From contig CACNVX010000002.1 of NCBI GenBank assembly GCA_902624045.1, positions 1 through 64,000 of the forward strand: a stretch of DNA of 64,000 nt, in the 5' to 3' direction. Each line of letters opens with the position of its first letter. Positions within the stretch are counted from its first letter, which is position 1. The notes below the pieces were generated by a model, which worked only from the letters and a program-made list of their open reading frames with translations, made no database searches and was not told the DNA's origin. Both the position numbers and the translations under genes were made by a program. Positions 2,967 to 58,227 of this stretch are shown here, one piece after another. The stretch is from an uncultured Pelagibacteraceae bacterium (GTDB lineage Bacteria; Pseudomonadota; Alphaproteobacteria; Pelagibacterales; Pelagibacteraceae).

Positions 2967-4199
2967 CTATATTACCTTAAATTTAGGAAGAGGCACCATT
3001 AAATTAATTTTATTATTTATTTTATAAACTTTCTTTTTAATATCATCTTTAAAATTCCATGCAAATATTAGTATAAATTTTGGTTTTAATTTTTTAATTT
3101 CTGAGGTGCAAACTATTTTGTTTCCATATATTGGTAAATATTTGTTTTGTTTTAGTTTGTTATCCTCAAAAATATATTTTACTTTATTTCTTGGCAAATT
3201 AAGCATTTTTAAAAACAAAATAATTTTAGTTGGGGATCCATATCCAAATATTTTATGATTTGATATTTTTTTTATTATTTTTTTTCTTGTATCTAGCATA
3301 ATAGCTTTAATATTCTTTTCCCATCGCATTATAAATTTTTTATCAAAAATAACTGTTCTTTTCTCTTTTTTTAAAAATAATAGTGCTTTTTTTGAAATAT
3401 TTTTTTTATCATCCTTTTTGCATAATATCCTTAGCGAACCACCTTGGATTTTTACCACACTAATATCGACTATTGAAAAACCGATACTAGTTAAAAAGTT
3501 TACAAGTGGATTCGCATGGTGATAATCCAAGTGTTCATGATAGATTGTATCAAAGTAATTATTGTTTAAAACTTTTTTAAAATACCCCACTTCAAAACAA
3601 AAGTGTCCATTATATTTTAAAATATAGTGTATATTTTTAAAAATAGATTTTAAATTGTCTACATGCGCAAGTGTATTATGACTTGTTATAAAGTCTACTT
3701 TTCCATGTAATCTTTCAACTTTTCTTACAGTTTTTTTATCAAAAAAGTTATTTATTGAATCTATTCCTTTTGATTTTGCTACCTTACAAGGTTTTGTTGC
3801 TGGATCAATTCCAAGAACTGTCATTTTTCTTTTTTGAAAATTTAGCAGACAGGTTCCATCATTAGATCCAATATCTAAGATAATATTATTTTTCTTAAGA
3901 TTAATTTTTTTAATTATTTCATCAGCATATTTTTTTAAATGTATAACCATACTTTTACCTGTTCCACTTAGGTAGGTATAATTTTTTGCATATAAAATTT
4001 TTGGATTGACTGAATAATTTAATTGAAAATGATTACATGATTTACAATTATTTAAAATTAGTGGATATTTTTTAGCCTTTTTACTAAGTTTTTTTTGAGA
4101 AAGAAGATTGTTTCCAAGAGGTATCTTACCAAAATTTATTATACGATCTAATTTTTTATTATTACAAAGTCTACATTTTTTAATAATCTTACCATCCAT
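2967..4199 (-). CDS. Class I SAM-dependent sugar C-methyltransferase (N-terminal zinc-binding plus C-terminal domain, TylC3/NovU-like architecture)
   Basis: N-terminal CRLCNN...CKSCNHFQLNY cysteine pairs, ILDIGSNDGTCL SAM motif, C-terminal IFGYGSPTKIILFL. Confidence 0.85.
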   Translation of the reverse strand: MDGKIIKKCRLCNNKKLDRIINFGKIPLGNNLLSQKKLSKKAKKYPLILNNCKSCNHFQLNYSVNPKILYAKNYTYLSGTGKSMVIHLKKYADEIIKKINLKKNNIILDIGSNDGTCLLNFQKRKMTVLGIDPATKPCKVAKSKGIDSINNFFDKKTVRKVERLHGKVDFITSHNTLAHVDNLKSIFKNIHYILKYNGHFCFEVGYFKKVLNNNYFDTIYHEHLDYHHANPLVNFLTSIGFSIVDISVVKIQGGSLRILCKKDDKKNISKKALLFLKKEKRTVIFDKKFIMRWEKNIKAIMLDTRKKIIKKISNHKIFGYGSPTKIILFLKMLNLPRNKVKYIFEDNKLKQNKYLPIYGNKIVCTSEIKKLKPKFILIFAWNFKDDIKKKVYKINNKINLMVPLPKFKVI

Positions 4200-4626
4200 T
4201 TTTTTTTAGTAGGTGTTTAATATTTTTGTTTGTTATCATTTCCACTCTAACAGTATCTTTCTCATATGTAGCTTGATCTCTAGGATTTTTGCTAGATACA
4301 ATTAAAGTTGTATTTTTCTGGAAGTAGGTTGAATGAATCTCCATTGGTGGAGTGTAAATAAGATCATTTTTTTTTACTTTAATATAATTAATTTTTTTCC
4401 CATTAATTTTTTTGAAAAAATAATCAATTTCACCATTAAGAACATACATAATATGGTAGTCTTTTTTATGATAGTGATTAGACCTAATAGTATTTTTTTT
4501 ACAATTTATTATTGATACATTTTTACATGGAATATCACAAATTGATAAAATAGAGCCTCTAGCGTCTTTATCTCTCAATTTAGTTTTAATTATAAAACTC
4601 TTATTTTTTTTTGTTATATTATCCAT
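4189..4626 (-). CDS. Cupin-fold protein (sugar isomerase/epimerase-like)
   Basis: RSNHYHKKDYHIMYVLNGEIDYFFKK...DLIYTPPMEIHSTYF cupin motifs. Overlaps the methyltransferase CDS. Confidence 0.65.
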   Translation of the reverse strand: MDNITKKNKSFIIKTKLRDKDARGSILSICDIPCKNVSIINCKKNTIRSNHYHKKDYHIMYVLNGEIDYFFKKINGKKINYIKVKKNDLIYTPPMEIHSTYFQKNTTLIVSSKNPRDQATYEKDTVRVEMITNKNIKHLLKKNGW

Positions 4627-4657: not shown

Positions 4658-6508
4658 ATGGCAACTTTTAAATCTAAAATACTATTGTTGAGCAGCTTTC
4701 AAAGAAAGTTAGCTCTATTTATTTTAGATAATTTTATTTGTATTGTATCTTTTTTTTTAGCTTACTATTTAAGATTAGAGTTATTTTTTATAAACGAAAC
4801 TGAAAATCAATTTATTTCATTTTTAATACTTTATTTTTCATTTGTAGTTTTGTGTTTTACCTTCTCTTTTTACCAACCTTTGTCGAGGTATTATGATTTA
4901 TTAAATATAGCAAAAATTATTTTAGTATTCTTCTTATATGCTTTTTTAATGACCTTGTTATTTGACTATCTTACAATTCCTGGAATACCAAGATTAGTTG
5001 GCTTTCTTCATCCAATAATTTTCTTAATTTTCTTTATATCATCAAGAGTGTTTGCTTATTATGTGATAAGAAAAATTTCATCTTCTGAAAAACAAAAAAA
5101 TATAATTGTTTATTGTAATATTAATACTGCAGAATTTTTAAAAAATGTTCTAAGATCTTATAATATTATATTCTTTATAACAGATGATATAAATTTTGAA
5201 AAAAGATTGATTGGTAATATTCCAATATTTACCTTAAAAAATTTAAATAAATCAATTTTTAAAAAAAAAAAAATTGATTTTGTTTACATAGATAAAAATT
5301 TAAATACTGATAAAAATAGAAAGAAAATTCTTTCGCAATTAACACAAAAGGAAAAAGTATCTTTCAAAGTAATACCCAAAACTGAAAAATTTTTAGATTT
5401 TCAATTTACAGAGGATATCAAAAATATAAATATTTTTAAAAGAAAAATAAATTTTTCATCAAATAAATTAAAAAATAAATTTAAAAATTCCTCAATACTC
5501 ATAACTGGTGCTGGTGGATCGATTGGTAGTGAATTATCTAAAGAAATTTTAAGACTGGAGCCAAAAAATATAATTTTAGTAGAAAACTCTGAGTATAACT
5601 TATATAGAGTTTTAGATGATTTAATTTATATAAAATCAGAAGAAAATATTAATACTTTAATTTCTTACCATCTTATATCAGTCACAGATAATGAAAAAAT
5701 CATAGAGGTTTGCAAAAATAGCAGGCCAAATTATATCTTTCATTGTTCAGCATACAAGCATGTTCCCCTAGTAGAAAAAAATATTATAGTATCTGTTGAG
5801 AATAATTTTATCTCTACCATTAATTTATGCAAAATTGCTCAAAAAATAGGCTCATCAAAATTAATTTTAATTTCTTCAGATAAAGCCGTAAGACCTTCAA
5901 GTATAATGGGAGCCACAAAACGATTGTCAGAGCTTGCAATTAAATATTATGCGCTTAAATCTATTGACAATAAACTAAAAACCTCGTTTTCAGCGGTAAG
6001 GTTTGCAAACGTTCTAAATTCCTCTGGATCAGTTGTTCCTTTATTTGCAAGACAAATTCAAGCTGGTGGTCCAATTACGATAACTGATAAAAAAGTAGAG
6101 AGATACTTTATGACAATTTTAGATGCTGTTAAGCTTGTTTTGGAAACTACATTAATCTCAAAAAATGGAAATATAATGTTACTCAAAATGGGTAAACAAA
6201 TAAAAATTTTAGATGTAGCTAAAAAGATTGCAAATTTTTATGGGTTAACCATAAAAGATAGTAAAAATTTATCTGGCGATATTGGAATTGTAGAAATAGG
6301 TTTAAGAGCAGGTGAAAAAATAAAAGAGGAATTATTTTATGACTCTAATATTAAAAAAACTAGTAATAAAGATATATTGTGTGTAGATAATTTTAAGTTA
6401 GATTTACAAAAGTTTGAGTTATTAAAAGAGAATATTAACATTTGTATAAAGAGAAATAATGTTGATAAACTTAAGAATATACTGCTAGATCAAAAAAATA
6501 TGTTTTAA
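4658..6508 (+). CDS. Membrane-bound nucleoside-diphosphate-sugar epimerase/4,6-dehydratase (CapD/FlaA1/WbpM-like)
   Basis: N-terminal TM helices, then ILITGAGGSIGSELSKEIL, VSVENNFISTINLCKIA, SSDKAVRPSSIMGATKRLSE and AVRFANVLNSSGSVVPLF. Confidence 0.93.
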   Translation: MATFKSKILLLSSFQRKLALFILDNFICIVSFFLAYYLRLELFFINETENQFISFLILYFSFVVLCFTFSFYQPLSRYYDLLNIAKIILVFFLYAFLMTLLFDYLTIPGIPRLVGFLHPIIFLIFFISSRVFAYYVIRKISSSEKQKNIIVYCNINTAEFLKNVLRSYNIIFFITDDINFEKRLIGNIPIFTLKNLNKSIFKKKKIDFVYIDKNLNTDKNRKKILSQLTQKEKVSFKVIPKTEKFLDFQFTEDIKNINIFKRKINFSSNKLKNKFKNSSILITGAGGSIGSELSKEILRLEPKNIILVENSEYNLYRVLDDLIYIKSEENINTLISYHLISVTDNEKIIEVCKNSRPNYIFHCSAYKHVPLVEKNIIVSVENNFISTINLCKIAQKIGSSKLILISSDKAVRPSSIMGATKRLSELAIKYYALKSIDNKLKTSFSAVRFANVLNSSGSVVPLFARQIQAGGPITITDKKVERYFMTILDAVKLVLETTLISKNGNIMLLKMGKQIKILDVAKKIANFYGLTIKDSKNLSGDIGIVEIGLRAGEKIKEELFYDSNIKKTSNKDILCVDNFKLDLQKFELLKENINICIKRNNVDKLKNILLDQKNMF

Positions 6509-7500
6509 TTTTCATTATCTTTTAAATGTAAAGTAAAAACTATTAGAAAAGATAAAAGTAATGCAAGTAAAACCTCTATATAATAAATATAACTAGTATT
6601 AACTGTTGTATATGAGTATCTAAATTTCGGTAAAAATTCGTCTAAATTTTCAATAAAATTTGATAAGTCTGACATTAAGACTATATTTTTACTTCCTAAT
6701 TCATCTAACCCACTGTACTTGTTTCCTAAATAATAATAATAAAGCATGATAGCACTATCTTTAAAAAAAACATCCAGGTTTCGTGTCATTTCAGTTTTTG
6801 AGAGAACTAGTCTTAAAAAGAAATCGTCATCTACTTTGGTATTTTTTTTAATTTCAAAAATAAAATTTTTAACATATTCTTCCAACTCAGCTTGATCATT
6901 TAATTTGAATTTATTCTTGATTTCTTCACCAATTACTTTGGGATGGAAGGTCAAAAGAAATTCATTTAAATTATTCAAAGTAGTGTAATATTCTTTATCA
7001 TAAAACGTTTGAGTTACTATCTTTAATTCTTTTTTTGCTTTTTTATGTAAATTATTTAAATATTCTTCAGCATCCTCTGCATTATCCCAAATAAGAGTTA
7101 GTCTTCTGTTGGGATATGTGAAATTAGGTGTATCAAAATGAAATGACTTAGCAATTTTATAATATTTATTTTTCTCTACGTTTTTAATTTTTAAGTCATC
7201 TATATTAAAGTTATAAATTAATTCAAAATAGTTTGCATGAAACTCTTTAAGATTTTCGAACGGAAAATATTCATATTTTTCAGTTAAATCATTAAATTTA
7301 ATTGAATTTTTACTATTTGTAGTCCAACTGTAAAAAAATTTATAATCAAAAATTACTTTATATTTTTGATCTAGTTTATCTTTTAAAAACGTATTATTTG
7401 CATAAAAAGATAACAACATTAATGCAATAAATATTGTTACAAACATCTTGTATCTTTTTTTAAAAACATTAGTAAAATCTTGAAAAGTAAAAAAACGCAT
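6505..7500 (-). CDS. Wzz/chain-length-determinant-like membrane protein (tentative)
   Basis: 331 aa with one N-terminal TM (MFVTIFIALMLLSFYAN), a long soluble region and one C-terminal TM (YYIEVLLALLLSFLIVFTLHLKD). Topology and context only; no strong motif. Confidence 0.45.
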   Translation of the reverse strand: MRFFTFQDFTNVFKKRYKMFVTIFIALMLLSFYANNTFLKDKLDQKYKVIFDYKFFYSWTTNSKNSIKFNDLTEKYEYFPFENLKEFHANYFELIYNFNIDDLKIKNVEKNKYYKIAKSFHFDTPNFTYPNRRLTLIWDNAEDAEEYLNNLHKKAKKELKIVTQTFYDKEYYTTLNNLNEFLLTFHPKVIGEEIKNKFKLNDQAELEEYVKNFIFEIKKNTKVDDDFFLRLVLSKTEMTRNLDVFFKDSAIMLYYYYLGNKYSGLDELGSKNIVLMSDLSNFIENLDEFLPKFRYSYTTVNTSYIYYIEVLLALLLSFLIVFTLHLKDNEN

Positions 7501-10849: not shown

Positions 10850-12099
10850 TGACGTTAGTTAATTTTAACAAATATTTATTTATTTTTTTATCTATAAATA
10901 TATGTTTAATTCCTGTTTTTCTTATAACAGGACCTTTTTTATCAGATCTGAGTTTAAGTTTATGTTCAATATTATATTTATTCTACATTCTATTAAATAA
11001 AAAATTTAACGTTTTCAAAAATTATTTCTTTATTTTTTTCTTAATATTTTATTTAACAATTTTAATATCATCTCTTCAGTCTGCAAATATATTTTTTTCT
11101 CTACATTCTTCCTTACCGTATATAAGGTTTGGGTTATTTATTTTATGTGTATGGCATACAGCAAAAGAAGATATAAAACTATTCAATAAAATTTTCCTAG
11201 TATTAACTGCTATTTACATTTTATTAGTATTCGATGGATATTTGCAATTTTTTACAGGAACCAATATCTTAAATTTCGAAAAAACAGGAATTAGAATATC
11301 AAGTTTTTTTGGCGACGAATTAATTTTAGGTAGTTATGTAATTAGGTTTTTACCAATTTACCTAGGATTGTATTTTTATACAATTGTAAAAAGATACATA
11401 TCCATTTATGAAAAAATATTTTTTTTAATATTTTTTATTTTAATATCGATACTTGTAATAATTTCTGGTGAGAGAACAGCTTTTGCTTTGTTGCTGATTA
11501 GCATTTTTTTAATACTTTTTTCTCTCAAGGGTTTTAAAAAAGCAAGAATTTCTTTTTTATTAATTTTTGTTTTGACTAGTATAATTTTCACATTCGTTTA
11601 TCAAAATAATTTCCAAAGACTATTCGTAGAAACAAAACAACAGATAATTAAAGAGAATAAAATATATTTTTTTGGTCAACGAAGACACGAGTATGCAAAT
11701 GTCTCAATTAATATATTTAAAGACAATATATTCCTAGGTTCAGGTCCCAGAACCTACAGAGTTGAGAGTAAAAACGATAAATATGCAATTTCAGATCTTT
11801 CTTGGAATACACATCCACACAGTATGTACTTACAACTGCTTGCTGAAACTGGAATAATGGGGACACTTTTAATTATTTTTGTCTTTTGTTATTTTATTAT
11901 TCAAATTTTTAATCAATCAAAAAATAAAAATTTTTCAAATTTAAAATTCAATATTCAATCATGTGTTGTTATAGCAATAATTATTAACTTTTTTCCGTTA
12001 ATGCCCTCTGGAAATTTTTTTAATAATTGGATTAGTATTGTATATTATTATCCAGTCGCAATATTTTTTGGTTTGAAATATGAAACTGAAAAGATCTGA
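10849..12099 (+). CDS. O-antigen ligase/polymerase family membrane protein
   Basis: 416 aa polytopic protein with GSGPRTYRVES...THPHSMYLQLLAETGIMGTLLII, a WaaL/Wzy-C type loop. Confidence 0.85.
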   Translation: MTLVNFNKYLFIFLSINICLIPVFLITGPFLSDLSLSLCSILYLFYILLNKKFNVFKNYFFIFFLIFYLTILISSLQSANIFFSLHSSLPYIRFGLFILCVWHTAKEDIKLFNKIFLVLTAIYILLVFDGYLQFFTGTNILNFEKTGIRISSFFGDELILGSYVIRFLPIYLGLYFYTIVKRYISIYEKIFFLIFFILISILVIISGERTAFALLLISIFLILFSLKGFKKARISFLLIFVLTSIIFTFVYQNNFQRLFVETKQQIIKENKIYFFGQRRHEYANVSINIFKDNIFLGSGPRTYRVESKNDKYAISDLSWNTHPHSMYLQLLAETGIMGTLLIIFVFCYFIIQIFNQSKNKNFSNLKFNIQSCVVIAIIINFFPLMPSGNFFNNWISIVYYYPVAIFFGLKYETEKI

Positions 12100-12234
12100 A
12101 AGTAAATTTATAAAATTTAATTTATATATATAAATTTAAAAATTTAGAAATAATAATTATTTTGCCTATATATATTGACTAAATTGATTAATATTTATGT
12201 TTACTTAATAATATTTTTTTTATATAAGCCCCCT

Positions 12235-12350
12235 GCCTGGTGATTATTGCGAAAGGGTAATACCCGATCCCATTCCGAACTCGGAAGTCAAGCCTTTCTG
12301 CGCCGATGGTACTTTGTCTTAAGATACGGGAGAGTAGGTCATTGCCAGGC
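12235..12350 (+). rRNA. rrf: 5S ribosomal RNA
   Basis: GCCTGG...CCAGGC terminal helix; GGGTAATACCCGATCCCATTCCGAACTCGGAAGTCAAGCC and GGGAGAGTAGGTCATTGCC are conserved 5S segments. Confidence 0.95.
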
Positions 12351-12360
12351 TATAGCTCTA

Positions 12361-13254
12361 ATGAAAAAATATATTTTAGTAACAGGTGGGGCTGGATTCG
12401 TTGGTTCAAACCTAATTGATCTTCTTTTAAAAAAAACCAATAAGGATATTATAAGTTTAGATAATTATTCTAGCGGTCAAAAAAAAAATCACATAAAAAG
12501 TTTGAGAGTAAGCTACGTCCGAGGAGATACATCTCAGATAAATAAGATATTTAAAAAAAATAAAAACAAAATACACTCCCTTTTTCATTTTGGAGAATTT
12601 GCTAGAATATTTCAAAGTTTTAAAAAATTTGATGATTGTTTTAAATCTAATGTAATTGGCTCCAATGCAGTTTTTAATTTTTGCTTAGATAACAAGATAA
12701 AATTAATTTATTCTGCAACCTCAGCGAGTTTAGGCAATAAAGGAAATGACAAAAATTTATCACCATATGCTTTTTCAAAATCAAAAAATTTGGAATTATT
12801 AGAAAATTTAAGAAAATGGTTTAACTTTAAATTTGAAGTAGTTTATTTTTATAATGTCTATGGCCCAAAACAAATTAAAAAAGGGTCAATGGCAACTGTA
12901 ATTGGAATATTTGAGGATCTATTTGAAACTAATAAACCGATAACGGTTGTTATGCCAGGGACACAAACAAGAAGATTTACGCATATTTCTGATACTGTTA
13001 ATGTTTGTTATGAGGCTTGGAAAAGGAATAAATGTTCGCATTACAGTATTTCTAATAAAAAAGCTTATTCAATTTTGCAAGTAGCAAAAATGTTTAAATC
13101 TAATATATCATATTTGAAGTCAAGACCAGGAGAGCGTTTTGCATCAGCTTTAACTAAAATATCTCAAAATAATAGAATAATTCAAAGATTTGGAAAAATA
13201 GATTTGAAAGATTACATAAGTTCGTTTATTAAAGGTAAAAATTTTAAAAAATGA
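12361..13254 (+). CDS. NAD-dependent epimerase/dehydratase (nucleotide-sugar epimerase)
   Basis: [32 protein letters not shown]...YAFSKSK (YxxxK), [10 protein letters not shown]. The supplied ORF (12247) extends into 5S; the true ATG is at 12361. Confidence 0.88.
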
Positions 13255-13376
13255 AAATTAAGAGCTCACTCAAATCAATAAAGAAAAGAGACCTAAACTC
13301 TAAGCTTGTAAGAAGAAGAGGAAGAGTCTACGTAATTAATAAAACAAACCCAAAATTTAAAGCAAGACAAAAGTAA
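13251..13376 (+). CDS. rpmJ: 50S ribosomal protein L36 (cysteine-free form)
   Basis: Read by eye, absent from the ORF track: [45 protein letters not shown] overlap with the preceding stop. Confidence 0.93.
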
Positions 13377-13380
13377 GTTT

Positions 13381-13491
13381 ATGGATAATGAAAACCATAA
13401 AAATACTTGGAATAATTTTACAAAATTTGTTCTGTGGGGAACTGTCGCTGTTATATGTGTTTTAGTATTAATGGCAATATTCTTATTGTAA
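13381..13491 (+). CDS. Small membrane protein, aa3-type cytochrome c oxidase subunit IV-like
   Basis: MDNENHKNTWNNFTKFVLWGTVAVICVLVLMAIFLL*: N-terminal H..TW..F and one TM helix, next to pntA as in other alphaproteobacteria. Confidence 0.65.
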   Translation: MDNENHKNTWNNFTKFVLWGTVAVICVLVLMAIFLL

Positions 13492-13500
13492 GGTTCCCAA

Positions 13501-14589
13501 ATGAAAATAGGGTCTATACTAGAAAATCAAAACCTTGAAAAAAGAATTGCTATAACACCTGAGTTAGTAAAAAAATATATTACTCTTGGATTTGAAATAA
13601 ATTTAATTGAAAATTATGGAACTCATCTTGGTATAAGAGATGAGCAATTCAAAGGCATGGGTGTTAAAATTTCTAAAGATGATTCAGAAATTTTAAATTC
13701 TTCTGACATAATTGTTCAGCTAGGCATGTTGTCTGATGATAAAGTTTCAAAAATTAGAGAAAATCAAACATTAATTGGAGTTTTAAACCCTTACAAAAAT
13801 AAAGAACAATTAGAAAATTTAGCTAAAAAAAAAATCAATCTTTTTTCTTTAGAATTACTTCCAAGAATTACTAGAGCTCAATCAATGGATATATTATCCT
13901 CACAAGCAAACCTTGCTGGTTATAAGGCAGTTATAGAATCTTTTGCCAATTTTGAAAAAGCTATACCAATGATGATGACAGCAGCAGGAACAGTTCCGGC
14001 TGCAAAGGTTTTGGTTGTCGGCGCAGGTGTTGCTGGGTTACAAGCTATTGCCACTGCAAAGAGAATGGGAGCAATAGTTTTTGCTACTGATGTAAGAATG
14101 GCATCAAAAGAACAAGTTGAGAGTTTAGGTGGTAAATTTTTAACTGTAGAAGGTTCAGAAAATTTAGAAACTGATGGTGGTTATGCCAAAGAAACTTCTC
14201 AAGATTTCAAGCAAAAACAAGAAGAGCTTTTATCTGAAACTTTAAAAAAAATTGATATAGTAATTTGTACAGCCCTTATACCAGGTAAAAAAGCTCCTTT
14301 GATAATTAAAGATAAAATGATTGAAAACATGCAATCTGGATCAGTAATTTATGATCTTGCAGCAATCCAAGGTGGAAATACTGCATTTACAGAAGTGGAT
14401 AAAATTATTAAAAAAAACGGAATAAAAATAATGGGTGAAAGTAATATTTTAAATAAGTTACCTGTTTCTGCTTCAAACTTATATGCCAAAAATATTTTTA
14501 ATTTTGTTGATAATTTAATCGACAAAGAGACTAAAAAAATAAATATTAATTTAGAAGATGAAATTATAGAAAAAACATTAATAAAGTGA
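13501..14589 (+). CDS. pntA: NAD(P) transhydrogenase subunit alpha part 1
   Basis: IAITPELVKKY, MDILSSQANLAGYKAV, VLVVGAGVAGLQAIATAKRMGA. Confidence 0.96.
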   Translation: MKIGSILENQNLEKRIAITPELVKKYITLGFEINLIENYGTHLGIRDEQFKGMGVKISKDDSEILNSSDIIVQLGMLSDDKVSKIRENQTLIGVLNPYKNKEQLENLAKKKINLFSLELLPRITRAQSMDILSSQANLAGYKAVIESFANFEKAIPMMMTAAGTVPAAKVLVVGAGVAGLQAIATAKRMGAIVFATDVRMASKEQVESLGGKFLTVEGSENLETDGGYAKETSQDFKQKQEELLSETLKKIDIVICTALIPGKKAPLIIKDKMIENMQSGSVIYDLAAIQGGNTAFTEVDKIIKKNGIKIMGESNILNKLPVSASNLYAKNIFNFVDNLIDKETKKININLEDEIIEKTLIK

Positions 14590-14592
14590 GTT

Positions 14593-14901
14593 ATGGAAAT
14601 AGATCCTTTAATATTTAGACTAAGTATATTTATCCTTTCAATATTTGTGGGATATTATGTTGTATGGAGTGTAACACCATCTTTACACACACCTTTAATG
14701 TCAGTTACTAATGCAATTTCCTCTGTAATTATTGTTGGAGCTATTATTGCAGGTTTGTCAGGAAATTCTGACAACGTATTTAACACTTCAAGTATATTTG
14801 GTTTTTTAGCAATAGCACTAGCTGCAATTAACATTTTTGGAGGATTTCTTGTAACTCAAAGAATGTTGGCAATGTATAAAAAAAAGAAAAAGGATAAATA
14901 A
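14593..14901 (+). CDS. pntA2: NAD(P) transhydrogenase subunit alpha part 2
   Basis: VGYYVVWSVTPSLHTPLMSVTNAISSVIIVGA...AAINIFGGFLVTQRMLAMYKKK. Confidence 0.95.
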   Translation: MEIDPLIFRLSIFILSIFVGYYVVWSVTPSLHTPLMSVTNAISSVIIVGAIIAGLSGNSDNVFNTSSIFGFLAIALAAINIFGGFLVTQRMLAMYKKKKKDK

Positions 14902-14902
14902 A

Positions 14903-16300
14903 ATGATATCTGCAAACTTATCAGCAATTTTTTATTTAGTATCAGGTGTTTTGTTTATTCTTGCTTTAAGGGGCCTGTCTTCACCCGAAACATCAAGACA
15001 AGGAAATTTGTTTGGTATTTTAGGTATGATTATTGCTATAATAGTAACGTTTTTATCAACAGGTAATTTTTCTACTGGATTTATATTTGTACTAATATTT
15101 ATTTTAGTAGGCGGATCTGTTGGTGCATTTATAGCTTATAGAATACCTATGACAGCTATGCCAGAATTAGTAGCTGGTTTTCATAGTCTTGTTGGACTTG
15201 CTGCTGTTTTTGTTGCAATTTCTGCTTTTTTAAACCCTGAAGCATTTAATCTAGGAGTGCCAGGAAATATTAAACTTGGTAGCTTGATTGAGATGTCTAT
15301 TGGTGCTGCGGTCGGAGCTATAACATTTTCTGGCTCAGTAATTGCTTTCTTAAAATTACAAGGAATTATGTCTGGATCTCCAATCACATTTAAAGGACAA
15401 CACCCTTTAAATGCAATTATATTGATTTCAATAGTTGTTTTAATTTATCTTTTGTGCTCAACACAATCATCCAATTTATTTTGGATTTTATTAGTTGTAT
15501 CATTTTTAATTGGTTTTCTTTTAATTATACCAATTGGTGGAGCAGATATGCCTGTTGTAATTTCTATGCTTAACTCGTATTCTGGTTGGGCAGCTGCAGG
15601 AATTGGTTTTACTTTAGAAAATACAGCATTAATAATTACAGGAGCACTTGTTGGATCATCGGGTGCAATTTTATCTTATATTATGTGTAAAGGAATGAAT
15701 CGTTCTTTCTTTAATGTTATATTAGGTGGATTTGGAGCTACTGAAGATATAACAACTAGTTCTGCAAAAGAACAAAGACCGGTCAAAAGTGGTAATGCGG
15801 ATGATGCTGCTTTTTTAATGAAAAATGCTTCATCAGTCATAATTGTTCCTGGTTATGGAATGGCAGTTGCTCAAGCTCAACATGCTTTAAGAGAAATGGT
15901 AGATACATTAAAGAAAAATGATATTAAAGTATCTTACGCCATTCATCCAGTTGCTGGACGAATGCCAGGACACATGAATGTTTTATTGGCAGAAGCAAAT
16001 GTACCATATGATGAGGTTTTTGAATTAGAAGAAATAAACAATGATTTTGCAAACGCAGATGTTGCTTTTGTTATTGGTGCAAATGATGTTACCAATCCAG
16101 TTGCAAAAACAGATCCACAAAGTCCAATTTATGGAATGCCAGTCTTAGATGTAGAAAAATGCAAGTCAGTTTTGTTTGTAAAAAGAAGCCTATCACCTGG
16201 ATATGCAGGTATAGATAATGATTTGTTCTATAAGGAAAATACCCTGATGTTGTTTGCAGACGCAAAAAAAATGACAGAAGATATTACTAAGAATTTGTAG
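14903..16300 (+). CDS. pntB: NAD(P) transhydrogenase subunit beta
   Basis: GVLFILALRGLSSPETSRQGN, GADMPVVISMLNSYSGWAAAGIGF, PGYGMAVAQAQHALREM, HPVAGRMPGHMNVLLAEANVPYDEV. Confidence 0.97.
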   Translation: MISANLSAIFYLVSGVLFILALRGLSSPETSRQGNLFGILGMIIAIIVTFLSTGNFSTGFIFVLIFILVGGSVGAFIAYRIPMTAMPELVAGFHSLVGLAAVFVAISAFLNPEAFNLGVPGNIKLGSLIEMSIGAAVGAITFSGSVIAFLKLQGIMSGSPITFKGQHPLNAIILISIVVLIYLLCSTQSSNLFWILLVVSFLIGFLLIIPIGGADMPVVISMLNSYSGWAAAGIGFTLENTALIITGALVGSSGAILSYIMCKGMNRSFFNVILGGFGATEDITTSSAKEQRPVKSGNADDAAFLMKNASSVIIVPGYGMAVAQAQHALREMVDTLKKNDIKVSYAIHPVAGRMPGHMNVLLAEANVPYDEVFELEEINNDFANADVAFVIGANDVTNPVAKTDPQSPIYGMPVLDVEKCKSVLFVKRSLSPGYAGIDNDLFYKENTLMLFADAKKMTEDITKNL

Positions 16301-16305
16301 ATCAT

Positions 16306-17004
16306 ATGAATACAAAGATTTTTTGTGATATTGCAGACATATCCTCAATAAAAAAATTTAATAATAAATCAATTGTAAAAGGATTTACCACCAACCCAAG
16401 TTTAATGAGAAAAGCTGGTGCAAAAGATTATAAATCTTATTCTAAACAAATACTTAAAATTTGTAGAAATAAACCTATTTCTTTTGAAGTATTTGCTGAT
16501 GATAAAGATTCTATGATCGAGCAAGGAAAAAAAATTAATAGTTGGGGTAAAAATGTTTATGTAAAAGTTCCTGTGGTTAATTCAAAAAATAAATTCTCCG
16601 GTAGTGTAATAAAAGAGCTAAATAGTAAAAATATTAAGTTGAATATCACAGCAGTATACACAGCTAAGCAAACCGAAAAAATACTTAAGTTAATTGATAA
16701 AAAAACTAGAGTGATAATTTCAATTTTTGCTGGAAGAGCAGGAGATACCGGCAAAGATCCAGTACCAGAATTTAAAAAAAGTATAAAATTAGCAAAGAAG
16801 TTTAAAAATGTAGAAATTTTATGGGCAAGTGTTCGAGAACCTTATAATTATTTACAAGCTAAACAATTGGGCTGCCATATAATTACTATTCCTCCAGCTG
16901 TAATTGAGAAAATAGAAAAATTTGGAAAATCATTCAATCAGTTAACTATAGAGACTGTTAAGGCTTTCCTTGTCGATAGCAAGAAATCTAATTTTAAAAT
17001 ATAA
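16306..17004 (+). CDS. Transaldolase family protein (short, FSA-like)
   Basis: KIFCDIADISSIKKF, KGFTTNPSLMRKAG, VYVKVPV, NITAVYT, ISIFAGRAGDTGKDP, ILWASVREPYN. Confidence 0.9.
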   Translation: MNTKIFCDIADISSIKKFNNKSIVKGFTTNPSLMRKAGAKDYKSYSKQILKICRNKPISFEVFADDKDSMIEQGKKINSWGKNVYVKVPVVNSKNKFSGSVIKELNSKNIKLNITAVYTAKQTEKILKLIDKKTRVIISIFAGRAGDTGKDPVPEFKKSIKLAKKFKNVEILWASVREPYNYLQAKQLGCHIITIPPAVIEKIEKFGKSFNQLTIETVKAFLVDSKKSNFKI

Positions 17005-55259: not shown

Positions 55260-57925
55260 TGAAAAAACTTATATTAAATTTTAATTCTAAGGATAGTAAA
55301 AAAATTGAAAATCCTAAAAACTTTTTAGGTGGAAAAGGTGCTAATCTTTCTGAAATGGGAAGAATGGGTCTTCCAGTGCCTCCAGGTTTTACAATATCTA
55401 CAAAAGTTTGTGAAATTTTTTATAAGGATAAAAAAAAATTAAATAAAAATTTAATTTCTCAAATTAAAAAAGAATTAAAATTAATCGAAAAAGATGTTTC
55501 TAAAAAATTTGGAGACCTAAAAAATCCACTTTTATTGTCTGTACGTTCTGGCGCAAGAGTATCAATGCCTGGTATGATGGATACTATTCTAAATTTGGGC
55601 CTGAACGATAAAACAGTTAAAGCTTTAGCAATTAAAACTTCAAATGGAAGGTTCGCTAAAGACAGTTATAGAAGATTCATTCAAATGTATGGTAATGTGG
55701 TAATGGGTGTTGAAGGTTATCATTTTGAGGAATTAATTGAAAATTACAAACTTACGAAAGGTGTTTTGTTAGATACAGATTTAGATGAGAGTGATTGGGA
55801 TGGACTAATTGAGGACTTTAAAAGAACAGTAAGAGAAAAGGCTAAAAAAGATTTTCCTCAAGATGTCTATGAACAATTACTAGGAGCAATAACTGCTGTA
55901 TTTTTATCTTGGGAAAGTAATAGAGCAAAAGTATATAGAAAACTAAATCAAATCCCAGCGGAGTGGGGAACCGCAGTAAATGTTCAATCAATGGTTTTTG
56001 GAAATATGGGTGATGATTGTGCAACAGGAGTTGTCTTTACAAGAAATCCATCAGATGGATCAAATGAAATATATGGTGAATATTTAATTAACGCGCAAGG
56101 TGAGGATGTTGTGGCAGGCACTAGAACGCCACAATATATAACAAAAAAAGCCAGGAGAGATGCCAAAGTAAAAGAATTATCAATGGAAGAATCTATGCCT
56201 AAAGTCTTTAAAGAACTTCAAAAAATTTTGAAAAAATTAGAGATGCATTACAAAGATATGCAAGACGTAGAGTTTACAGTCGAAAATAATAAATTATGGA
56301 TGCTTCAAACAAGATCAGGAAAAAGGACAGCAAAATCAGCAGTCAAAATTGCAGTTGATATGGTTAAAGAAAAATTGATTTCTAAAAAAGAAGCTGTATT
56401 AAGAATTGATCCAAACTCTTTAGATACACTTTTGCATCCTACTTTAGATGAAAAAAGTTCAATTAATGTAATAGCAAATGGATTGCCAGCATCACCTGGT
56501 GCAGCTAGTGGCAAAGTTGTGTTTACATCAGAAGAAGCTGAAAGATTAACCGCAATGATGCAAGATACAATTTTGGTAAGAGTGGAAACCTCTCCAGAAG
56601 ATATACAAGGAATGCATGCTGCTAAAGGAATTTTGACTGCAAGGGGAGGAATGACAAGTCATGCGGCTGTTGTTGCAAGAGGTATGGGCAGGCCATGTGT
56701 TTCAGGATCGAGTGAAATTGATATAAACTATGAAAATAAGTCTTTTAAAACTTCTTCAATGGAGATTAAAGAAGGAGACATAATCACTATTGATGGCTCA
56801 ACTGGAAGAATTATTTCCGGAAGTGTTTCAACTGTGAAGCCTGAAATATCTGGTGATTTTTCCAAGTTAATGTCTTGGGCAGATAGCTTTAGGAAATTAA
56901 GAGTAAGAACAAATTCTGAGACACCAAAAGACACCAAAACAGCAAAAGATTTTGGTGCAGAGGGAATTGGATTATGTAGAACTGAACATATGTTTTTTGA
57001 TGAAGAACGAATTTTGTCTGTAAGAGAAATGATATTATCTAAAACGAAAGATGACAGAGCAATAGCATTACAAAAACTGTTACCACATCAAAGAAAAGAT
57101 TTTATAGATATCTTTAAAATCATGAGTGGATTACCAGTCACAGTTAGATTGTTGGACCCACCATTACATGAATTTTTACCACGCACAGAAAAGGAAATTA
57201 ATGAGGTTGCTAGTATAGTTAATCTCCCAATTAAAGAGATTGAGTCAAGAATTGAAGAGCTACATGAGCAAAATCCTATGTTAGGTCATAGAGGCTGTCG
57301 TCTTGGAATATCTTTTCCTGAAATTTACGAGATGCAATGTAAAGCAATATTTGAAGCTTTAGCACACCTTAAAAAAAGTAAAATTAAATCTGCATTTCCT
57401 GAAATAATGATACCTTTGGTATCTACAGAGGCCGAGATAAAAATAATGAAAGATTTAGTAATTAGAACCGCAAGTAAAGTTCAACATGAACATAAATTAA
57501 AAATAGAATTTTTAGTAGGAACGATGATTGAATTACCTAGAGCAGCAATAAAAGCAAAGGAAATTGCTAAGCATGCAGAGTTCTTTAGTTTTGGAACAAA
57601 TGATTTAACTCAGACTACTTTTGGAATCAGTAGAGATGATAGTGGTAAATTTTTAAATGATTATTTAGAAAACAAAATATTTTCTGTTGATCCTTTTGTT
57701 TCAATAGATGAAGGAGTTTCAGATTTAGTTGAAATAGCGGTAGAAAAAGGAAGAAAACAAAATAAAAATCTTAAACTAGGTATTTGTGGAGAGCATGGAG
57801 GAGATCCGCATAGCATTTCTTTTTGTGCAAGAGCAGGATTGAATTATGTTTCTTGTTCACCTTATAGAGTTCCTGTTGCAAGGCTAGCTGCCGCTCAAGC
57901 TGAAATTAAAAAAAAATTAAATTAA
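55259..57925 (+). CDS. ppdK: Pyruvate, phosphate dikinase
   Basis: FLGGKGANLSEMGRMGLPVPPGFTIST, GILTARGGMTSHAAVVARGMGRPCVSG, AEGIGLCRTEHMFF, LGICGEHGGDPHSISFCARAGLNYVSCSPYRVPVARLAAAQA. Confidence 0.98.
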   Translation: MKKLILNFNSKDSKKIENPKNFLGGKGANLSEMGRMGLPVPPGFTISTKVCEIFYKDKKKLNKNLISQIKKELKLIEKDVSKKFGDLKNPLLLSVRSGARVSMPGMMDTILNLGLNDKTVKALAIKTSNGRFAKDSYRRFIQMYGNVVMGVEGYHFEELIENYKLTKGVLLDTDLDESDWDGLIEDFKRTVREKAKKDFPQDVYEQLLGAITAVFLSWESNRAKVYRKLNQIPAEWGTAVNVQSMVFGNMGDDCATGVVFTRNPSDGSNEIYGEYLINAQGEDVVAGTRTPQYITKKARRDAKVKELSMEESMPKVFKELQKILKKLEMHYKDMQDVEFTVENNKLWMLQTRSGKRTAKSAVKIAVDMVKEKLISKKEAVLRIDPNSLDTLLHPTLDEKSSINVIANGLPASPGAASGKVVFTSEEAERLTAMMQDTILVRVETSPEDIQGMHAAKGILTARGGMTSHAAVVARGMGRPCVSGSSEIDINYENKSFKTSSMEIKEGDIITIDGSTGRIISGSVSTVKPEISGDFSKLMSWADSFRKLRVRTNSETPKDTKTAKDFGAEGIGLCRTEHMFFDEERILSVREMILSKTKDDRAIALQKLLPHQRKDFIDIFKIMSGLPVTVRLLDPPLHEFLPRTEKEINEVASIVNLPIKEIESRIEELHEQNPMLGHRGCRLGISFPEIYEMQCKAIFEALAHLKKSKIKSAFPEIMIPLVSTEAEIKIMKDLVIRTASKVQHEHKLKIEFLVGTMIELPRAAIKAKEIAKHAEFFSFGTNDLTQTTFGISRDDSGKFLNDYLENKIFSVDPFVSIDEGVSDLVEIAVEKGRKQNKNLKLGICGEHGGDPHSISFCARAGLNYVSCSPYRVPVARLAAAQAEIKKKLN

Positions 57926-58187
57926 GAGGGGCGTTCTGTTGCCAGGTGCCCCAGACCCCGTTTGCTTAATTAACTAAGTTAATTAGGCAGCAAGTGCGTA
58001 ACTTTCGTTAGCAATTATAAATTAGCCCGTTACGGTGGAACAATCCCGAACGAAAGAATAGCCTTTAGTCACCCGTCGAATCTATTTCACCCCCATAAGT
58101 TGCAATGGTGGAGGTGGTGGGTACTGCCCCCACGTCCGCAATGGTTATTACGAAATTCGTTTATCGTCGTAGTTGGAAATCCAACGA
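57926..58187 (-). ncRNA. ssrA: tmRNA, two-piece circularly permuted form: acceptor piece about 58187-58106, linker 58105-58095, coding piece about 58094-57928
   Basis: On the minus strand, GGACGTGGGGGCAGTACCCACCACCTCCACCA (T-arm/CCA end) precedes GGGGGTGAAATAGATTCGACGGG (tmRNA 5' end); the GGGGGTG/CACCTCC acceptor stem pairs. Tag ORF GCTAACGAAAGTTACGCACTTGCTGCCTAA = ANESYALAA* at 58012-57983, followed by a TAATTAACTTAGTTAATTA hairpin. Confidence 0.93.
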
Positions 58188-58191
58188 TATT

Positions 58192-58219
58192 AATATAAAA
58201 GTAATTACAACAGATTCAA
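58192..58219 (-). promoter_or_regulatory. Candidate sigma-70 promoter for ssrA
   Basis: Minus strand TTGAAT-16 nt-TATATT (58219-58214 and 58197-58192), just upstream of the acceptor piece. Confidence 0.5.
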
Positions 58220-58227
58220 TAACAATC

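Follow-up and report, generated by a model that had tools for sequence, protein, structure and literature searches.

A predicted promoter at the first base of the separated 5S rRNA gene of SAR11, and the gene run that it may head

SAR11 bacteria rank among the most abundant cells of the ocean. As far as we could find, the literature does not address how these bacteria produce 5S rRNA after the separation of its gene from 16S-23S. The question is raised directly by the locus analysed here, a 5S gene lying behind 12 kb of surface-glycan genes in a stretch of 64,000 nucleotides from an uncultured Pelagibacteraceae bacterium (the window). The answer that we favor, and consider likely on the strength of sequence comparison, is that the 5S is transcribed alone from a sigma70-type promoter, starting at its first base and continuing into a run of genes that includes rpmJ, and that the 5S reached this place by moving across the glycan island.

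The 5S gene, called clear in an earlier sequence-only reading of the same DNA, is confirmed by a match to the full Rfam model RF00001 (model positions 1-120) at 12236-12350 on the plus strand, with 97.9 bits against a cut-off of 38 and an E-value of 4e-20. Helix I pairing (GCCUGG with CCAGGC) adds one base, placing the first base of the 5S at G12235, which pairs with C12350. This is the sole 5S match in the whole assembly (1.15 Mb, 53 contigs, 83% complete), and no phage record matched the 5S. No 23S was found in this 83% complete assembly, and an Rfam scan detected neither 16S nor 23S in the window; where a canonical 16S-23S-5S operon would place the 23S within about 100 bases, the 12 kb upstream of this 5S hold none. 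Because the contig (C2, 89,537 bp) begins at base 1 of the window and the assembly has no detectable 23S, the sequence cannot be extended leftwards to that gene. Pelagibacteraceae relatives carry one 5S per genome in nearly all cases, single-contig genomes included. Weak second 5S-like matches were seen at L212 and L214 (G328) and at L213 (G347), with 53, 30 and 52 bits, in genomes that are 8% and 3% contaminated. Features of the locus are collected in Table 1.

Table 1. Features at and around the 5S rRNA gene in the window.
Feature	Position	Strand	Basis
Right part of HVR2-type surface-glycan island, cut by the contig start	1..12099		ORFs, Pfam
-35 box TTTACT of the predicted 5S promoter	12200..12205	+	Sequence; alignment with 75 relatives; strict pattern match
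-10 box TATAAG, 17 bp past the -35 box and 6 bases ahead of the 5S	12223..12228	+	Alignment, strict pattern
Predicted transcription start, at the 5S first base	12235	+	G in 75/75 family loci; inferred
5S rRNA gene	12235..12350	+	Rfam RF00001, 97.9 bits; sole match in assembly
NAD-dependent epimerase/dehydratase (Epimerase PF01370), ATG 10 nt past the 5S; variable gene between 5S and rpmJ	12361..13254	+	Pfam, comparison
rpmJ, for ribosomal protein L36 (41 aa); 4-nt overlap of its start with the epimerase stop	13251..13376	+	Pfam PF00444
Match to Rfam 'pntA sRNA' RF01810	13377..13438	+	Rfam
36-aa ORF, COX4_pro_2 (aa3 cytochrome oxidase subunit IV), E 1.9e-11	13381..13491	+	Pfam
pntA	13501..14589	+	ORF, Pfam
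PNTB_4TM subunit	14593..14901	+	ORF, Pfam
pntB	14903..16300	+	ORF, Pfam
Transaldolase	16306..17004	+	ORF, Pfam

Pfam matches in the upstream 12 kb comprise GT2, Gfo/Idh, PIG-L, a C-methyltransferase, Polysacc_synt_2, rmlB, rmlD, rmlA, rmlC and a Wzy/O-antigen ligase, and the ORFs at 158-487 and 6505-7500 had no Pfam match. The earlier description of this DNA as surface-glycan genes with no 23S or 16S is thus accurate for almost all of it. Four ORFs lie on the minus strand (2292-2963, 2967-4199, 4189-4626 and 6505-7500), and the O-antigen ligase gene ends 135 bases ahead of the 5S, at 12099. What precedes the 5S is a variable surface-glycan island whose DNA is unconserved among relatives, as in the hypervariable region HVR2, known to lie between 23S and 5S in SAR11 since 2007 (Wilhelm et al., PMC2217521) and found again in marine and freshwater SAR11 (PMC3815206, PMC4053759, PMC7318151). 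The HVR2 of Candidatus Pelagibacter is the same kind of glycan island, placed between 16S-23S and the sole 5S, with variable content and conserved flanks. The locus is, by comparison with relatives, the right edge of HVR2, and in the part that the window covers its arrangement differs in no way from the known one and is textbook SAR11; the sequence-only reading was right to propose it, as borne out by relatives with both genes on one contig and by published genomes (PMC2217521, PMC3815206). What is added here is the predicted 5S promoter, the gene run behind it, the loss of a flanking stem and a sister family in which the island lies beyond an intact rRNA operon.

A DNA search for the 23S covered 23 chosen genomes, the end of the gene being extrapolated where it was partly masked as N; such blockwise masking explains the short or missing 23S matches in complete genomes. 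In the 14 family genomes with 23S and 5S in line on one contig (G002, G003, G024, G012, G061, G062, G063, G064, G065, G072, G176, G253, G256 and G311), the 5S lies downstream on the same strand at a distance of 14.6-88 kb. One further genome (G069, contig C1, loci L107 and L132) has the 23S on the minus strand and the 5S on the plus strand, about 437 kb apart and pointing away from each other. The 5S of G069 still has its promoter sequence and rpmJ attached, a case similar in kind to that of strain uisw_092, in whose published genome about 880 kb separate 23S and 5S (PMC12421898).

When the 5S flanks of relatives are set side by side, a common pattern is seen immediately upstream, namely TTTACA, 16-17 bases, TATAA, 5-6 bases and then the first base of the 5S. 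Judged by sequence criteria only, boxes with a spacer of 16-18 bases and a start 5-8 bases further on are those of a sigma70-type promoter, and TTTACT-17-TATAAG in the window, with 6 bases and then a G behind it, fits this description. Each of 75 family loci from 7 genera was scored by its best match to TT[TG]ACA and TATAA at fixed geometry (maximum 11). The full score was reached in 41 loci, 10 in 16, 9 in 14, 8 in 3 and 5 in a single locus (L122). Of these 75 loci, which are related and not independent, 71 thus score at least 9; when the test is moved to shifted positions of that upstream DNA, 2.7% do so, and in Markov sequence 4.1%. The motif was first noticed on 30 loci; among 48 family loci fetched afterwards, 44 score at least 9. 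In 69/75 loci, 5 or 6 nt separate the end of the -10 box from the first 5S base. Seventeen further loci, mostly from basal genera, gave at least 9 in 14 of the 15 with enough upstream DNA, the remaining one (L196) scoring 8; L201 was cut at a contig end and L207 was unparsed. The genera sampled here for the first time (g12, g13, g14 and g17), like additional members of g5, g6, g7 and g10, keep the geometry but vary somewhat in their boxes, for example TTTACC/TATGAA in g13 and TTTGCA/TATAGA in g12. The promoter was scored in 11 genera altogether (g1, g5-g10, g12-g14 and g17), upstream DNA being missing in a twelfth (g16).

Of 197 family genomes, 78 matched a strict pattern combining promoter and 5S, and none matched the reversed pattern used as control. 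Conservation begins at the -35 box: preceding columns carry approximately 0.04-0.3 bits, and mean pairwise identity at -110 to -45 is 0.34. Three operon-type 5S genes from the second family of the order, here called the sister family, reach only 3-4 at the promoter geometry. Hence, judging from these alignments, the TTTACT-17-TATAAG element most likely drives the 5S on its own, and of the two routes suggested earlier, transcription apart from 16S-23S is probably the correct one. We infer initiation at G12235, with the reservation that the conservation of this G may reflect helix I pairing instead of a role in starting transcription. The 16S promoters of the split family (L125-L144) differ in their -35 box, TTGATT or TTGACT, and are followed by leaders of about 200 bases; the predicted 5S transcript is leaderless.

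The 5S had also been described as standing alone, which it does not: it heads a tight run of genes on the same strand (epimerase, rpmJ, the COX4-like ORF, pntA, the PNTB_4TM subunit, pntB and transaldolase), with gaps of at most 10 bases throughout and of 1-9 nt from pntA on. Directly or past one epimerase gene, rpmJ follows the 5S almost everywhere checked. The gene after the 5S is rpmJ in 49 loci (median gap 11), an epimerase in 25 (median gap 12) and neither in L017; in most epimerase loci rpmJ comes next, about 930-1,080 bases from the 5S. In the loci read, only 8-30 bases lie between the 5S and the next start codon, for which reason the polymerase probably continues into rpmJ and beyond, and the run is likely co-transcribed from the predicted 5S promoter. 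The sequence of events would be the following. The sigma70-type promoter ending 6 bases before the gene would fire and the transcript would begin on the first base of the 5S, whose 5' end would accordingly need little or no trimming; a cut in the short A+U-rich spacer would then free the 5S and leave an mRNA with a very short leader. In G064 (L163), a second TTTACA/TATAAA pair is found right before rpmJ, after the epimerase, and rpmJ may therefore have a promoter of its own where it is separated from the 5S.

In six loci of the sister family, the operon-type 5S is enclosed by a flanking stem (TTTCACGTTTTGTTGA ... TCTACAAAACGTGAAA) scoring 11.5-15.5. The mean stem score of the 75 split 5S genes is 3.7, no better than the 4.8 of shuffled flanks; two split loci reach 11.5 and shuffled flanks reach up to 12.5, so that calls at single loci mean little. 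As a group, the split 5S genes are without the flanking stem, and the 23S of the same family retains its own. On the simplest reading, the stem would no longer be needed once transcription begins on the first base of the 5S itself.

The best-surviving alternative, which we nevertheless regard as unlikely, is that the 5S is processed from a transcript starting slightly upstream, in the last gene of the island or in the spacer, the boxes contributing part of the supply only. In its favor, 57/72 loci have their nearest long upstream ORF on the strand of the 5S, and the ligase gene in the window ends 135 bases before the 5S. However, the upstream genes and the spacer are unconserved while the boxes and their distance to the 5S are conserved, and the stem associated with operon-type 5S is missing from the split group. 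Rather improbable, too, is the idea that the boxes are the promoter of rpmJ and pnt and that the 5S landed between them as an ordinary passenger with 5' processing of its own. Such an origin would agree with the position of the 5S, always between the boxes and rpmJ in the loci read. A promoter for the downstream genes alone would have no need of a fixed spacing to the 5S, though, and in the sister-family loci read a coding sequence precedes rpmJ and no boxes of this kind lie immediately before the gene.

Very long read-through across the O-antigen genes, which the sequence-only reading had offered as the other way of making this 5S, would yield a single primary transcript that begins at the 16S promoter and spans 23S and the entire island up to the 5S. 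The shared strand of 23S and 5S in the 14 one-contig genomes speaks for it, as would the lack of a terminator in the first 600 nt past the 23S, although the scan used there detects perfect stems only and is insensitive; with the same kind of scan no terminators were found after the 23S or before the 5S, a result that is uninformative. Against read-through stand the 15-88 kb of island to be crossed, with genes on both strands (four opposite-strand ones in the 12 kb ahead of this 5S), the opposite-strand ORF that adjoins the 5S in 15/72 loci, the roughly 880 kb between the genes in uisw_092 (PMC12421898) and the conserved promoter abutting the 5S. For G069, with its genes pointing apart, it is excluded, and for the family as a whole we consider it very improbable. 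That the 5S is an extra copy, with an intact 16S-23S-5S operon in the unassembled part of this incomplete genome, as the missing 23S would allow, is the least probable reading of all, given the single 5S of nearly all relatives and the split form in all family loci read.

Transcription of the 5S from its own first base thus being the preferred reading, the question is how the gene came to lie where it does. In the sister family (15 genomes, among them the SAGs AG-337-G06 and AG-892-M06, labelled Pelagibacteraceae in records), 23S and 5S are 88-96 bases apart. These genomes behave like SAR11 subclades IV and V, which keep a single rRNA operon (PMC7318151), a likeness that does not prove identity. 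The rpmJ gene of G038, G048, G050, G051, G052, G054 and G056 lies 54-78 kb past the intact operon, with which it shares contig and strand. In G038, G048 and G051, the first 46-53 kb past the 5S are mostly unlike between genomes, and next comes a conserved block holding rpmJ and pntA, both on the same strand; among ten proteins scanned, those encoded in the island include products of glycosyltransferase, rmlB-like and rmlA-like genes. The order of rRNA operon, glycan island, rpmJ and pnt is therefore common to both families, and only the 5S has changed sides. The usual order in bacteria being 16S-23S-5S, the move of the 5S most likely took place in the ancestor of the split family. Comparison with the sister family thus alters the evolutionary story: a glycan island of this type was probably already beside the rRNA operon, and the 5S would have shifted from behind the 23S, across the island, to the front of rpmJ. 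Insertion of the island between 23S and 5S was considered and rejected, since the sister family has the order rRNA operon, island, rpmJ and a 5S that directly follows the 23S. That islands arose at this place independently in the two families would be a less simple explanation.

The separate synthesis proposed here has parallels outside bacteria. Eukaryotic 5S rRNA is made by RNA polymerase III, apart from the large rRNAs and starting at its first base, from an internal promoter. Separate synthesis from the first base would be shared with SAR11, while the polymerase differs, the promoter is internal and no mRNA lies downstream. According to the part of a review on which we draw (PMC8339473), the 5S of Crenarchaeota/TACK archaea is likewise unlinked from 16S-23S and independently transcribed; the transcription system there is archaeal, and that part does not describe the 5S as heading a ribosomal-protein operon. 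Broken rRNA operons, in which the rRNA genes are similarly not together, have been surveyed in bacteria (PMC7761764; Brewer et al. 2020, cited in PMC8339473). These surveys center on the separation of 16S from 23S, and PMC7761764 makes no mention of SAR11 or Pelagibacter. For SAR11, the sequence makes a specific prediction, that the transcript begins on base 1 of the 5S. If this is true, SAR11 would be a bacterial parallel to crenarchaea and eukaryotes, whose 5S is transcribed separately. An rRNA heading the mRNA for a ribosomal protein would be unusual. We tentatively propose a fuller scheme, to which we give slightly less than an even chance, in which the 5S would be both a primary transcript with an unprocessed 5' end and the 5' leader of an rpmJ-(COX4)-pnt operon, one promoter would set the supply of 5S, L36 and the proton-translocating transhydrogenase, and the split would have arisen as the 5S crossed the pre-existing island. 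A literature search that left most subscription journals outside its reach returned nothing on a 5S promoter in SAR11. As far as we could find within that scope, the conserved promoter at the 5S first base, the operon that it heads and the evidence for a move of the 5S are undescribed and go beyond the known split.

The closest published account of this neighborhood is that of Meyer et al. (2009), who placed the pntA motif of HTCC1062 between rpmJ and pntA and found 5S or rmlB to be the gene most often annotated 5' of it in marine metagenomes (PMC2704228). The succession of 5S or rmlB, rpmJ, pntA motif and pntA is shared with the present locus. There the motif is regarded as a candidate RNA; the word "promoter" does not occur, and the 5S is not described as heading an operon. 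Unlike in that treatment, the motif here coincides with a small coding sequence, the RF01810 match lying almost wholly inside the 36-aa COX4_pro_2 ORF. Across 52 relatives that have a 36-aa ORF here, differences at codon positions 1, 2 and 3 number 12932, 5060 and 23490, a coding-like distribution; a simple parse picked up no such ORF in about a quarter of the loci. By this codon pattern, the RF01810 RNA family may wholly or partly be a conserved small gene. Farther along the window, at 57892-58223, there is a tmRNA of the permuted (two-piece) alphaproteobacterial type with the tag ANESYALAA.
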